A program made the translations under genes and the position numbers. A model generated the notes under the pieces. That model saw only the letters and a list, made by a program, of their open reading frames with translations, was not told the origin of the DNA and ran no database searches. From Planctomycetia bacterium (lineage in GTDB: Bacteria > Planctomycetota > Phycisphaerae > UBA1845 > UTPLA1), in NCBI GenBank assembly GCA_015200345.1, contig CP054187.1:1968470-2032469 (forward strand): a stretch of DNA of 64,000 nucleotides. The letters are read 5' to 3'. Shown one piece after another: positions 4,341-48,117 of the stretch; the stretch's first letter is position 1, and each line of letters opens with the position of its first letter.

Positions 4341-5455
4341 AGAACATTCCGTTTCTCGATCTCAAGGCGCAGTACCTCCCGCTCGCTGATGAAATCCAGC
4401 GCGAACTGAAGGAAGTCTGCGAGACCACGCAGTTCATCCTCGGCGGAAAGGTCAAGGCATTTGAAGACGCTTTCGCCAAAGCCGTCGGCGCGAAACACTG
4501 CATCGCCCTCAACACCGGCACCAGCGCGCTGCATCTCGCCATGGACTGCCTCGGAATCGGCCCCGGTGACGAAGTGATTGTGCCCGCGATGACCTTTATC
4601 GCCACCGTCTGGGGCGCGGTCTACGCCCGCGCGACGCCGGTGCTCGTCGATGTCGATCCCGCAACGCGCAATCTGGATCCGAAAAAACTCGAAGCCGCCA
4701 TCACCCCGCGCACCAAGGCCATCGTTCCCGTTCACCTGTACGGCCAGCCCGCCGATCTCGACGCCATCTTCGCCATCGCGAGGAAGCACAACATTCCGGT
4801 GATTGAAGACACCGCGCAGGCACACCTCGCGCAATACAAGGGCAAGACCGTCGGCAGCCTCGGGGTCATGGGGTGCTTCAGCTTCTATCCCGGCAAGAAC
4901 CTCGGCGCGTACGGTGAAGGCGGCGCGCTCACCACCAACGACGACGCGCTCGCGAAGATCGCCCTCTCGCTGCGCGATCATGGCCAGGCGCAGCGCTACC
5001 ATCACGATCGCATCGGCTACAACTATCGCATGGACGGCTTCCAGGGCGCGGTGCTCGGCGTCAAATTGCGACATTTGCCAAATTGGACCGAGCAACGCCG
5101 CCGGGCGGCCGCGCGCTACGCACAAAAGCTGGCACCGCTTGCAGACAAGGGCTTGGTGGATATCCCCCGCGAGCCGGACTGGTCGCGCGGCGTGTATCAT
5201 CTGTACGTTGTACTCGTGAAAAACCGCGACGCCGTGAAGGACAAGCTGACCGCCGCCGGCGTCAACGTCGGACTGCATTACCCGATCCCGCTGCACCTCC
5301 AGAAGGCGCTGGCCCACCTCGGGCACCAGCGCGGCGATTTCCCCGTGGCGGAGCGAATCGCCGACGAGTGCATCAGCCTGCCGATGTTCCCCGAGCTGGC
5401 CGACGCAGACATCGATTACGTCGCCAGCGTCCTGTCAGAGTGCCTCGCATCCTGA
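4337..5455 (+). CDS. DegT/DnrJ/EryC1/StrS PLP aminotransferase (WlbC/WbpE-like)
   Basis: This 372-residue type I fold PLP enzyme shows TGTSALHLAMDCLGIGPGDEV near residue 60, EDTAQAH with the pyridine-binding Asp158, and SFYPGKNLGAYGEGG with the Schiff-base Lys187. It would transfer an amino group from glutamate to the 3-keto nucleotide sugar made by the dehydrogenase two genes upstream, after which the acetyltransferase acts. It starts inside the glycosyltransferase stop (ATGA), so the four genes form one tightly packed operon. Length is normal for the family. The family is certain; the exact 3-oxo-uronic acid substrate is inferred. Confidence 0.9.
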   Translation: MKNIPFLDLKAQYLPLADEIQRELKEVCETTQFILGGKVKAFEDAFAKAVGAKHCIALNTGTSALHLAMDCLGIGPGDEVIVPAMTFIATVWGAVYARATPVLVDVDPATRNLDPKKLEAAITPRTKAIVPVHLYGQPADLDAIFAIARKHNIPVIEDTAQAHLAQYKGKTVGSLGVMGCFSFYPGKNLGAYGEGGALTTNDDALAKIALSLRDHGQAQRYHHDRIGYNYRMDGFQGAVLGVKLRHLPNWTEQRRRAAARYAQKLAPLADKGLVDIPREPDWSRGVYHLYVVLVKNRDAVKDKLTAAGVNVGLHYPIPLHLQKALAHLGHQRGDFPVAERIADECISLPMFPELADADIDYVASVLSECLAS

Positions 5456-5497
5456 CGCGGTGAGGAACGACGCTTCGGACCTGGGAGCCGCGCCGAG

Positions 5498-6253
5498 ATG
5501 GCCACCTCCGTGAATCTTGTCGAGCTACAGGACACGCTCTACACGTCGCGTAATCCCACGCGCCGCTGGTTGCACACCCAGCGGCTGGAATGGGTGCTGT
5601 CGGCCCTGGAGCGTCACAAGCCCGCGCCGTGTCATCGCGCCCTGGAGATCGGCCCCGGCTCGGGTACGTACCTGCCGACCCTTTGCGCCATGGCCGACGA
5701 AGTCGTCGCCGCCGACATCGAAGACGCATACCTCGAAAAAGCCAAGACCCTGACCTCCCGGCTGCCGAATCTGCAACCGCTCAAGGATGACATCACCGCG
5801 TCAAAGCTGCCGACCGGCCATTTCGATCTCATCCTCTGCACCGAGGTCATCGAACACATCCCCGGATCGCCGGCGGGTCTGCGCGAGATGCGCCGCCTGC
5901 TTCGCCCCGGCGGCGTGCTGGTGCTCTCCACGCCGCAAAAATACAGCACGATGGAAATGATGTGCAAGATTGCCCTGTTGCCGGGCATCATCGAAATCGT
6001 GCGGATGATCTACCGCGAGCCCGTCGTCGAATCGACCCACTGCAACCTGCTGACCGCCGGCATGTGTCGCCGCCTGATCACCGAGGCAGGGTTGACAATT
6101 GTCGATCATTACAAGCTGGCGCTCTACCTCCCCTTTATCGCGGAACTCACCGGGCGCGTCGGCCTGCGACTGGAGCAGTGGCTGGAGTCCGCCCTGCGCG
6201 GCACGCCGCTTGACGGCCTGCTCTGGACCCAGTGTTATGTGGCGCGGGCTTGA
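5498..6253 (+). CDS. class I SAM-dependent methyltransferase
   Basis: The 251-residue product has motif I ALEIGPGSGTYLPTL (residues about 46-60), the acidic end of strand 2 (VVAADIED), FDLILCTEVIEHIPG as motif II/III and LLRPGGVLVLSTP. These are Methyltransf_11/UbiE-type features. Acceptor not recognisable. It follows the sugar operon by 42 bp in the same direction with GGGAG before the ATG, so it may methylate a sugar or a lipid-linked intermediate; that role is inference from context. Confidence 0.8.
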   Translation: MATSVNLVELQDTLYTSRNPTRRWLHTQRLEWVLSALERHKPAPCHRALEIGPGSGTYLPTLCAMADEVVAADIEDAYLEKAKTLTSRLPNLQPLKDDITASKLPTGHFDLILCTEVIEHIPGSPAGLREMRRLLRPGGVLVLSTPQKYSTMEMMCKIALLPGIIEIVRMIYREPVVESTHCNLLTAGMCRRLITEAGLTIVDHYKLALYLPFIAELTGRVGLRLEQWLESALRGTPLDGLLWTQCYVARA

Positions 6254-6373
6254 TCCGCTCACGTCGAACCGCCGTTCGACGTGAACGCCTCCGCCGTCGC
6301 TTCGCGAACCCTTGCCGTGTTCGCCTGTTGAGCGCGACCGAACGGCTCCTGCTAGTCCCGATTGCATCCAAAC

Positions 6374-8203
6374 ATGGATTACGCTCACGCTTCCATGACC
6401 GATTGCCGACACCACCCTTCAAGCTTTGAACGCACACGGCGAATCGCCGCCTCGCTCATTCTGATCGTGACGATCGTCCTGATCGGGTTCGTTGCCTGGG
6501 CCGGCAGCTGGCGCGGCGGGTTGCAACCCGACTCGGTCACGTTTCTCGACGCAGCGCAGCGCCTCGCGGACGGCAAAGGTCTTTCCCACCGGTGGGCCTA
6601 CTGGGACCCGGTCTATGAAACCGCTCATTTGCCCACGCGGACGACCATGTGGCCACCGGGTTATACAGCCGCCATCGCGGCGATGATCAAATCGGGCTGT
6701 TCCGCCTACGACGGCGCGCGACGCGTCGCCGGCATCGCGCTCTACTTGCTGCCCCTCGCACTGTTCGGCCTGGCGTGCCGAATGACGACTCCCGGCCGCG
6801 CTGCGCTCTGTGCCGCCGCGGCCGCCTGCTGCTTCCCCGTCCTGCGATTCGCCGGCGTCGTCCTGGCCGAGCCGCTCTTTCTGTTAATGGTGCTGCTGAC
6901 CCTCATGGCCGCTTCGCGCGGGGCGACCGCCCCCCGCGCTCGAACGGCCGGAGCGTGGTTGCTCACGGCCGGCGTGCTCGGCGCGACGGCCTTTCTCGTG
7001 CGCCTGCCCGGGGCATCGCTCGGCGCGGCGCTGGCGGTCGCGGCGCTGTGGACCCGGCGGCGATTCGGCCGGCGAACCGGCCTCGCGATGCTTATTCCAG
7101 CGACCGGTCCGCTCGCCGTCGCGATCGGCGGATGGGTGTTAAGAAATCGACTCCTGTCGGGTTCAGCGGTCGCCTCCTTTCCCAACGGCCCTTATTCGCT
7201 GATCGCCAATCTGCGCGAAGTGCCGCGCAACGTTCTCTCGGAGTGGTTCGGATGGAAGTCGCTTTACCCCGGCCTGTTGGCTTTGCTGCGACCGCTTCAG
7301 GTCGGCCTGCTCCTCGTGCTGATCGGTTTGGCCCTGTGGAATGCCTGGCGCGGGTGGACGAGACCGAGACAGCCAATCGTCCCGGATTCCGCCGCGATCG
7401 ATCCCGGCGGGACCGGTCACGCCGCCGGATCCCTTCTCGTGCTGACCTTTCTCATCGCTTATGCCGCGCTCATCTTCGCCGCCACCGCCGGCAAGGGCCT
7501 CATGGCCGAGGCACGATACTTTGTCGTCGTGCTGCCCGTCGTGACGCTCCTGCTCACAGTCTGGGCCACGTCGGGAGCCATGCGCGCCTCCAACGAAGCT
7601 TGCACTGCGCGAGCTGATCTGTCGCGATTCACGGGTGTTGCCGCGACGTTGCTTCTCTGCGCCGCGCAAGCGACCGCCCTCCTCCGCTGGACATCCGAAC
7701 CGTCGCCGGAAAGCTACGTGGTCACGACGCGCGACAGCCCGGTGATTGCCTGGCTGCGCGATCACACAACGCCGGACGAATTGCTTCTGACCACCGCCGG
7801 CGCCGAGATCGCCATGTACCGGCCGAATCCGATCTTGCGCGTCGCCCGGCGGCCGCACTCGGCACGGCAGACGACCTCTTGGTCCGACGTGGACGAACTC
7901 GCCCGGCGAGCCGGAGCCCGCTACCTGATCCATTGGCGAAATTCCGAGCCGAACCCTTATGACGCCGAATCCTCCCGATTCGAGCAGTCGCTGAACGACC
8001 CGGCAATCTTCCGGGAGCGGGAGCCGGTTACCCTCGGAGAGCACATCATCTATCGCGTCGGGATCAGCGCGGGCACTGGCAGCGGCGCTTCGCGCGCGGG
8101 AACTGGCCATGGCAAGGGACAATCGAGGCGCGCAGAGGCGCTCGCCTACGACGAAGCAGGCGCATATGTCGAACGATCCAGCCAAAGCCCGCTGATGCAT
8201 TGA
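6374..8203 (+). CDS. polytopic membrane protein, GT39/PMT-type glycosyltransferase-like
   Basis: About 609 aa. After a short basic N-terminus there is a first membrane segment (ASLILIVTIVLIGFVAWAGSW), a periplasmic loop with PDSVTFLDAAQRLADGKG, then at least eight further hydrophobic segments and a soluble C-terminal domain of about 150 residues. This layout is that of polyprenyl-phosphate-sugar dependent glycosyltransferases of the GT-C fold; the conserved acidic pair of the first loop is seen only as a single PDS. A role in adding sugars to an exported glycan fits the neighbours (sugar operon before, galE after). The start is uncertain: TTG at 6362 and ATGs at 6374 and 6395 are in frame and none has a good ribosome site. 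Confidence 0.6.
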   Translation: MDYAHASMTDCRHHPSSFERTRRIAASLILIVTIVLIGFVAWAGSWRGGLQPDSVTFLDAAQRLADGKGLSHRWAYWDPVYETAHLPTRTTMWPPGYTAAIAAMIKSGCSAYDGARRVAGIALYLLPLALFGLACRMTTPGRAALCAAAAACCFPVLRFAGVVLAEPLFLLMVLLTLMAASRGATAPRARTAGAWLLTAGVLGATAFLVRLPGASLGAALAVAALWTRRRFGRRTGLAMLIPATGPLAVAIGGWVLRNRLLSGSAVASFPNGPYSLIANLREVPRNVLSEWFGWKSLYPGLLALLRPLQVGLLLVLIGLALWNAWRGWTRPRQPIVPDSAAIDPGGTGHAAGSLLVLTFLIAYAALIFAATAGKGLMAEARYFVVVLPVVTLLLTVWATSGAMRASNEACTARADLSRFTGVAATLLLCAAQATALLRWTSEPSPESYVVTTRDSPVIAWLRDHTTPDELLLTTAGAEIAMYRPNPILRVARRPHSARQTTSWSDVDELARRAGARYLIHWRNSEPNPYDAESSRFEQSLNDPAIFREREPVTLGEHIIYRVGISAGTGSGASRAGTGHGKGQSRRAEALAYDEAGAYVERSSQSPLMH

Positions 8204-46066: not shown

Positions 46067-46777
46067 TCACGGGATGATCACGATTCCCAGGACCGCCTGA
46101 AGGATGAACAGGATCGTGCCCCAGAAGAAGAACCCGTAGAAAAATGTCGCCAGCAGCGCCGACACAAGGAAATCGAATCCGCCGTCCAGCGCCTTCACGC
46201 CGCCGGTCGCCGTGTCGACGCCGGAACCGTTGCCCGAAACGACCGACTGTCCGCCGATCGGTCCGCCAGCCTGCGCGTCCAGCGCGGCCGCCGCATCGAG
46301 CAATTCCGCGTTGGCCTGCTTGAAGGCATCGAGCGTGTTTTCGTCGGTTGTCGCACTGCTCGTCCAGTCGGCCGGGCGGTTCCACACCGCGCCGTTGGAG
46401 TTGGCGATCCGCGTGATGTGCTTCGCGGCGTCGATCGAGACCTGGATCAGCTCGGCCCCGCGGCCGATCGTGATCTGCCGCAGCGCGACCGTCTCGCCGG
46501 AATCAAATCGCCCGCTCATCTCCCGCACGCTGTCGGGAAAGATTACGCGAAACGTATTCGTCGTCGGGTTCACCAGCACGGCCGTCGCGCCGTCAAATGC
46601 CGTGCCCGCCAGCGACTGCGTCAGGGCATGGTCGGCCGTCAGTTGCACAAGGTACGAGCCGTCTGCCAAGATGACCGGGGCCGCGCCGCAGCCGGCCCAG
46701 TATTGCACATTGAGAATGAGGGCGATGCAGACAATTGACTTGGTCTTGAACAGCATACGGCGCAGTGATCGCTTCAT
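46067..46777 (-). CDS. lipoprotein with C-terminal membrane helices, paralogue B
   Basis: 236 aa; CAGGAGG before the ATG. Signal with lipobox WAGC (Cys30). The central domain (about residues 35-150) matches the next gene upstream at many positions: LTADHALTQSLAGTAFDGATAVLV, NTFRVIFPDS, ITIGRGAELIQV. A hydrophilic linker (GGPIGGQSVVSGNGSG) leads to a C-terminal hydrophobic part (FDFLVSALLATFFYGFFFWG, ILFILQAVLGIVIIP). A lipoprotein that also has a C-terminal membrane anchor is unusual. The domain was not recognised. Translation follows paralogue A after 41 bp. Confidence 0.6.
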   Translation of the reverse strand: MKRSLRRMLFKTKSIVCIALILNVQYWAGCGAAPVILADGSYLVQLTADHALTQSLAGTAFDGATAVLVNPTTNTFRVIFPDSVREMSGRFDSGETVALRQITIGRGAELIQVSIDAAKHITRIANSNGAVWNRPADWTSSATTDENTLDAFKQANAELLDAAAALDAQAGGPIGGQSVVSGNGSGVDTATGGVKALDGGFDFLVSALLATFFYGFFFWGTILFILQAVLGIVIIP

Positions 46778-46818
46778 CAGATTTCCTCCTGAAATAGGGT
46801 TTCGCGGCCCGGTGATCC

Positions 46819-47505
46819 CTAGAGCACCAGGTCCAGCACGACCACAACCTGGAACACAAAATAAAGCGTGAGCAGAACGCCCCACGGCGCGAACCAGACG
46901 TAGCTCAACGCCAGAAACGCGAACGGAAACGACGAGGCCGTGTCCTTGCCGAACTGCGCCCCGCCCTGGTCATCAATCTGTTGCGCCATCGCGATCAGGT
47001 CCGCATTGGCGTCCAGATACGCGTCAATATCCGAAGCCATAGCCTTGGCACCCGGTGCGCGAGGGGCCGTCGGAGCCGCCGGCGCCGCCGTGCTGACGCG
47101 CTGCCAGCGCGCGCCCGCCGACGTGTCGATGTCGGTGATCTCTTTCCGGCTGTTGATCTTCAGCGTCACGACCTGGCCGCCCTGGCCGATGGTAAACGAG
47201 CTGACGTAGGCCTGGCCCTCCTCGGTCGTTGCGAACTTCCCGGAAAGTTGCGTGTTCGTGTCGGGATAAACCAGCCGGAAGCTGTTGGTTGACCGATCGA
47301 CCTGAATCGCCGTCGCGCCGTCGAAGGGCGTGCCGGCCAGTTGCTGGGCCAGCGGATGATCGGCCGAAAGTTCGAGGGTCTCGGTCGATTCGGGCAGGAA
47401 CAGGGCCGACTGGCCGCAGCCGGTGACGACGACGAGGTTGAAGACCAGCGCGACGCCCAACAGGGCCTTGGCCTTGAAGAGGTAGACCTTGGTTGCGGAA
47501 CTCAT
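46819..47505 (-). CDS. lipoprotein with C-terminal membrane helix, paralogue A
   Basis: 228 aa from an ATG with GGGAGG upstream. The lipobox VTGC places Cys at residue 30, exactly as in paralogue B. The domain LSADHPLAQQLAGTPFDGATAIQV, NSFRLVYPDT, FTIGQGGQVVTLKINSRKEITDID is clearly homologous to B. An Ala/Pro-rich linker precedes the C-terminal hydrophobic FPFAFLALSYVWFAPWGVLLTLYFVFQVVVVL. First gene of the operon and the promoter-proximal one. Function unknown; a membrane-tied ligand-binding or scaffold role is guesswork. Confidence 0.6.
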   Translation of the reverse strand: MSSATKVYLFKAKALLGVALVFNLVVVTGCGQSALFLPESTETLELSADHPLAQQLAGTPFDGATAIQVDRSTNSFRLVYPDTNTQLSGKFATTEEGQAYVSSFTIGQGGQVVTLKINSRKEITDIDTSAGARWQRVSTAAPAAPTAPRAPGAKAMASDIDAYLDANADLIAMAQQIDDQGGAQFGKDTASSFPFAFLALSYVWFAPWGVLLTLYFVFQVVVVLDLVL

Positions 47506-47703
47506 TTTGTAATCCCTCCCAGATAGGTAGAACAAATGCCTGCCTTGCACGATTGCTTCTTGCGCTACTTAAACATGGCCGCAGAGAAATTGGCCCACAA
47601 TCCGACGGGTCCCCCCCGCCGAGCGCGAAGCGCCCGATCCCGCACGGCCCGTTGCGTGGTGCTGCGTCGGTCGCGCGGGATCAAACCGAATCGCATAAAC
47701 GAC

Positions 47704-47732
47704 TTATAACAAAAACGGGGCGGAAAAGTCAA
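47704..47732 (-). promoter_or_regulatory. sigma70 promoter for the paralogous lipoprotein operon
   Basis: TTGACT (47732-47727), 17 bp, TTATAA (47709-47704) on the minus strand. Transcript start near 47697. Confidence 0.65.
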
Positions 47733-48048
47733 CCGATTTCGGATACGCAAAACAGACATTATCGGGTCATGGTTTAACAGGTTTACCCATCGGAATTTCG
47801 TGAATTCGTAGTCATGTAGGCGGTGCCTGCCGCATCGAGTCTACCATGATTGGCGGCCAAACCCCCTCCATGCAAGCCGGCCAACAAAAGCCGGCTGATT
47901 GCTGGAGGTCGCACTTCATAAGGAGCCGGTGCATCGATAAGGTTTGCGATGCCCACCTTGCCATCTGGGACAACGGGAATGCGCAATCCGCGAAAGTAAC
48001 GCCGTCAAGCCCGTTGGCCGTGTGCCCTGGCTTGCGATAAAATCCTGA

Positions 48049-48076
48049 TTGACAAGCGCTAACGGTTAAATACAAT
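48049..48076 (+). promoter_or_regulatory. sigma70 promoter for the ABC ATPase gene
   Basis: TTGACA (48049-48054), 16 bp, TACAAT (48071-48076). The best promoter in the window; start near 48083, leader about 35 nt. Confidence 0.75.
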
Positions 48077-48117
48077 CGCTCGATCGACGGTTGGGTTATC
48101 CGGTTGTCGCCATACGC

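Follow-up and report, generated by a model that had tools for sequence, protein, structure and literature searches.

Little is understood of how planctomycetes attach very large proteins to their envelope. LapA-type RTX adhesins have an N-terminal retention module, lack a Sec signal and leave the cell by type I secretion. MlaA, Wza and CyoA are lipoproteins with extra membrane helices, those of Wza and MlaA being located in the outer membrane. Lineage-specific sorting of varied surface proteins, involving an invariant Cys and a hydrophobic helix, is found in the MYXO-CTERM/myxosortase (PMC11980579) and GlyGly-CTERM/rhombosortase (PMC3237569) systems.

Here we describe two genes, winA and winB, present on the minus strand of a 64,000-nucleotide stretch of DNA (the window) from a Planctomycetia bacterium whose genome consists of one contig of 3.88 Mb. 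They appear to encode small membrane-anchored envelope proteins, and their family was found in no database searched. The family, its module order, fusions, gene neighbourhood, co-occurrence and the selection on both genes were computed. With a probability of roughly 60% we consider winA and winB to be bare copies of a lineage-specific envelope-anchoring module for surface proteins. Such a module would be comparable to the MYXO-CTERM and GlyGly-CTERM systems in the features just mentioned, and a further likeness to MYXO-CTERM is the similar C-terminal tail present on the genomic partners of two groups of relatives, groups II and III (PMC11980579). However, unlike MYXO-CTERM, the module sits at the N-terminus and contains a beta domain of its own together with a lipobox-like site. 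The last residues of winA and winB still belong to a hydrophobic stretch, and the two proteins have neither a Cys nor an Arg cluster there. As in MlaA, Wza and CyoA, an N-terminal lipid and a helical membrane segment would be combined in one protein, but winA and winB have no Pfam, PDB-sequence or fold match to these proteins, and the module ends in a hydrophobic stretch of 27-44 residues after which variable cargo or nothing follows. As in LapA, the putative N-terminal anchoring part of some relatives precedes long Ig/cadherin repeats, with RTX repeats in two of them (L039 and L047). In contrast to LapA, all module members have a predicted Sec-type lipoprotein signal at their N-terminus, most of them lack RTX repeats, and winA and winB lack repeats of any kind.

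Gene winA (P0001, 228 aa; 47505-46822, stop to 46819) and gene winB (P0002, 236 aa; 46777-46070, stop to 46067) are separated by an intergenic gap of 41 nt, and each is preceded by a Shine-Dalgarno sequence, GGGAGGG (47520-47514) for winA and AGGAGG (46790-46785) for winB, all on the minus strand. Gene order and surroundings are kept in a second species of the genus (the sister species), whose orthologues are 90% (winA) and 94% (winB) identical. With a dN/dS of 0.14 each in this comparison, both genes are under purifying selection. The ribosome-binding sites, the synteny and the selection indicate that both ORFs are real genes, in agreement with the two-gene paralogous operon proposed in the first-pass annotation. 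winA and winB share 38% identity and sit on separate deep branches of the module tree, which rules out a recent tandem duplication; they are true but old paralogues. Elsewhere in the window, a gene on the plus strand (36-893) encodes a protein with a PEP-CTERM-like tail (PEPATGLLALIGLAVIVRNRR), so that an exosortase pathway probably operates in this organism as well.

The operon promoter (47703..47732, minus strand) consists of a -35 box TTGACT (47732-47727), an 18-nt spacer and an extended -10 box TG-n-TATAAG (47708-47703); it was not listed by a consensus scan because of the G as last base of the -10 box. In the sister species 29 of its 30 bases are identical, and the DNA upstream of it is 65% identical. 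The promoter that had been called strong is present and conserved. The case made for it from a single sequence was weaker than stated, although its conservation between the two species speaks for a functional element at this place. The sister species contains ∼1.4 kb of extra DNA between the operon promoter and an ABC-transporter gene (L035, ∼5355-7190, versus 47760-48090 in the window). The leader is ∼190 nt long, as reported before. Over promoter and early leader together (47732-47600) only 5 mismatches are found in 133 columns, against a synonymous divergence of 28% in winA (P 3e-13), and the rest of the leader beyond ∼47600 is just 70% identical between the two species. The promoter and the first ∼100 nt of the leader (47600..47702, minus strand) are strongly constrained. 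The region 47732-47600 is a possible cis-regulatory element, for which a two-species comparison cannot separate an RNA structure from an operator. Its leader part contains an inverted repeat, GATCCCGC (47682-47675) and GCGGGATC (47643-47636), corresponding to the 8-bp stem described earlier. This stem exists, but it carries less weight than was given to it: the fold of the leader is ordinary (z -1.25), and the change of one G-U pair into A-C in the sister species does not favour a leader stem. The leader had no match in Rfam, which speaks against a known riboswitch, and a mobile repeat was rejected in view of its presence in a single copy per genome and its confinement to this genus. A one-base indel, which puts the two species out of frame with each other after ∼26 codons, argues against a coding upstream ORF. 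The strong intrinsic terminator that had been noted, an 18-pair stem followed by a T run (46010-45972, minus strand), lies just outside the interval 46067-47732 originally assigned to the operon and is conserved in the sister species.

Of 17 genomes from one planctomycete family, 10 yielded members in a profile search, which gave no member in the other genomes searched (114 from the order, plus samples of 397 from the class and 392 from the phylum, with up to seven candidates scored per genome in these two samples). The N-terminal module family is probably specific to this one lineage. The search counted two further members in the source genome besides winA and winB, and two members are present in records of uncultured Planctomycetota (isolates PLA2 and PLA6). 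A viral origin was rejected after a single scan of viral contigs, in which nothing was found. Neither winA nor winB has a match in Pfam or NCBIfam, no Pfam family scored above cut-off for the module (the TSP_3 hits obtained belong to cargo), a PDB sequence search and Foldseek gave no significant relative, and literature searches found no description of the family. A weak similarity to SlpA_N (PF22796) covers winA residues 81-134 (E 0.095; family best 0.022), but at 13.3 bits against a cut-off of 27, and with matches in 2 of the 31 members, the family does not belong to it. The proposal of an undescribed family therefore outlasted the tests for known-family membership and for a missing C-terminal hydrophobic segment. 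The pair itself represents no more than the minimal form of a wider multi-domain family. Many lipoproteins of planctomycetes lack annotation, and the weak individual annotation would also fit ordinary unannotated lipoproteins whose likeness to the giant relatives amounts to a signal peptide plus a generic hydrophobic stretch. This explanation is very improbable in view of the homology, which spans the signal, the beta domain, the helix and the hydrophobic end, with full-length E-values of 1e-53 to 1e-79, and of a profile that finds nothing beyond the planctomycete family in the class and phylum samples.

The module is a reusable N-terminal unit, and the sequence after its hydrophobic end varies between four groups. 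Nothing follows it in group I, which comprises winA, winB and their relatives. In group II it is followed by a barrel whose model resembles calycins; the best fold hits, CRABP-II and bradavidin, had a probability of 0.99 but E-values of only 0.01-0.05. Group III has a second small domain after the module, and in group IV the module is fused at the N-terminus of chains of 1,150-2,333 aa with Big_9 (Ig), Cadherin, TSP_3 or RTX (HemolysinCabind) repeats. RTX repeats occur in L039 and L047 only, and the large repeat region is absent from winA and winB. Architecture tracks the module tree, requiring 8 changes versus 20 when shuffled.

The genome of winA and winB contains no fused giant, and no giant surface protein adjoins the pair; both observations speak against the anchoring reading. 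The neighbours are a small predicted lipoprotein gene and a PQQ-type propeller gene. The small lipoprotein (45823-45293, minus strand, downstream of winB) is 97% identical in the sister species and has no Pfam or NCBIfam match. Such surroundings would suit an inner-membrane or periplasmic scaffold, such as a pair of lipoproteins for stress or signalling; the surface fusions would then be a separate later use of the module. That group I constitutes one of the deep branches of the module tree, and that its representatives in genomes G009 and G013 are encoded close to topoisomerase VI genes (identified by reading the gene sequence), would also suit a scaffold. As most family members have a physical or genomic link to surface-type proteins, we regard a scaffold as improbable.

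The signal regions of winA (47416..47505) and winB (46688..46777, both minus strand) cover residues 1-30 and end in Cys30. This Cys is invariant in 31 of 31 aligned members and is preceded by Gly or Ala in all of them. Hence, its identical position in the two proteins, which the first-pass annotation had pointed out, reflects homology. The strict PROSITE lipobox (PS51257) fits winA and 15 of the 31 members; winB, with a Tyr at -4, does not fit. This limited agreement counts against the anchoring reading. The family does have the basic N-terminus, the hydrophobic stretch and the small residue plus Cys of a lipoprotein signal. In the 31-member alignment, mean pairwise identity is 0.41 for signal residues 11-30, higher than the 0.325 of the beta domain and the 0.21 of the hydrophobic end, and Cys17 in the hydrophobic core of the signal is nearly invariant. 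Plain signal peptides are not usually better conserved than the domain that follows, which suggests recognition of, or a constraint on, the module signal itself.

The AlphaFold2 model of winA, built with a 31-row alignment, has a helix at residues 3-28, a beta domain of ∼95 residues (41-135; 47101..47385, minus strand; pLDDT ∼92), helices at 155-179 and C-terminal helices at 193-204 and 209-227. By alignment, a homologous domain occupies about residues 41-135 of winB (46373..46657, minus strand). The residues that are invariant in the 31 members besides Cys30 are Phe76, Gly89, Gly131, Trp134 and Asn167 (winA numbering), and the module contains a short conserved helix, DAYxAANxxL. Foldseek gave no PDB fold match for the winA domain at E ≤ 0.001. 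The model supports the central domain pointed out in the first-pass annotation.

Both proteins end in a hydrophobic segment containing one charge, which comprises residues 194-228 of winA (35 residues; 46822..46926) and 201-236 of winB (36 residues; 46070..46177, both minus strand). In the winA model this end forms a helix pair around a Pro-Trp-Gly turn; the matching segment of the group II relative from the same genome is modelled as one 41-residue helix. With 35-36 residues the segment is longer than one membrane span and short for two, and may form a Pro-hinged hairpin, a re-entrant segment or one long kinked or tilted helix. The C-terminal membrane helices described earlier thus stand as hydrophobic segments in both proteins, and two full transmembrane helices cannot be asserted. 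All members examined have such an end, spanning ∼27-44 residues where clearly delimited; the predicted double attachment, which had been thought rare, is general in this family and is also known from MlaA, Wza and CyoA. In the repeat-bearing relatives L041-L049, L027 and L038 (L039 excepted), two Cys are present in the turn of the segment, mostly as C-x(2-7)-C beside a Pro; they are absent from winA and winB. The ends are moderately hydrophobic in groups I-III and strongly hydrophobic in the giants, and the moderate values are a further point against the anchoring reading. They could allow escape from inner-membrane retention, as would be expected if the module were an outer-membrane conduit, with lipid and beta domain in the periplasm, an alpha-helical assembly in which the segment makes a single crossing of the outer membrane, and the C-terminal cargo outside; its helices in the outer membrane would make it resemble Wza or MlaA. 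The single long helix of the group II model and the extracellular, calcium-binding type of the cargo are consistent with a conduit. The helical hairpin of the winA model is not, and the strongly hydrophobic segments of the giants should be retained in the inner membrane, making this alternative rather doubtful.

Partner genes provide a second tie to surface proteins. In the stretches fetched from six of six genomes, the group II gene adjoins a divergently oriented gene for a homologous large surface protein of ∼1,490-1,700 aa. These giants share 43-94% identity, and both of those tested matched the choice-of-anchor U domain of NCBIfam. Five were seen with their C-terminus and, apart from small variations, all of these end in Cys-Gly-x-Cys followed by a hydrophobic helix and an Arg cluster; the variant in genome G015 is Cys-Gly-Ala-Cys. 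When the 17 genomes of the family were searched, the giant was present beside a group II gene in exactly those six, and elsewhere only weak partial hits were obtained. Label shuffling gives a chance of 1/12,376 for this co-occurrence, an arithmetic that ignores relatedness; the six genomes are related and therefore do not represent six independent events. In five of five genomes, the group III gene precedes one for a large secreted protein whose tail is similar. This partner has a protease domain, M4 or S8, in two of the five, and in G007 its Cys lies further from the helix. For group III co-occurrence was uninformative, since the domain used as query is a common repeat and gave matches in every one of the 17 genomes. 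The tail of Cys motif, helix and Arg cluster was recorded in L079, L080, L083 and L086 (group II neighbours) and in L078, L084, L085 and L087 (group III neighbours). No NCBIfam CTERM model matched the partner tails, which are possibly an undescribed sorting tag.

The fusion of the module to surface proteins in some members and its adjacency to them in others point to a role in holding or helping to assemble such proteins at the envelope. From the sequence features we infer Sec export, lipidation of Cys30, membrane insertion and anchoring. Under the anchoring reading, Sec would export the module by means of its lipoprotein-type signal, which is conserved, and a lipid on Cys30 would keep it at the membrane; the module would fold as an extracytoplasmic beta domain plus the DAYxAANxxL helix, and the hydrophobic segment, usually with a Pro hinge, would return it to the membrane. 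In relatives acting in cis the module would carry the fused cadherin/Ig/RTX adhesin-like chains, and in those acting in trans it probably helps to anchor or assemble the large surface protein of the adjoining gene. Since winA and winB have neither cargo nor a giant neighbour, their exact role is deduced from the family: most likely they would be base or partner subunits, perhaps together. A pairing of the two proteins is a guess, and so is the choice of membrane. A more ambitious proposal, which we consider a long shot, is an unrecognised surface-display route in which signal, beta domain and stalk would carry cargo, fused or in trans, to the surface, winA and winB being core parts.

The family offers a concrete way of testing how very large planctomycete proteins are anchored: it comprises a single small module, an operon of two genes as its minimal form, adhesin-like fusions and, for one of its forms, a partner gene that accompanies it in every genome where it occurs. 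Annotators gain a name for a set of proteins that is now without a family.
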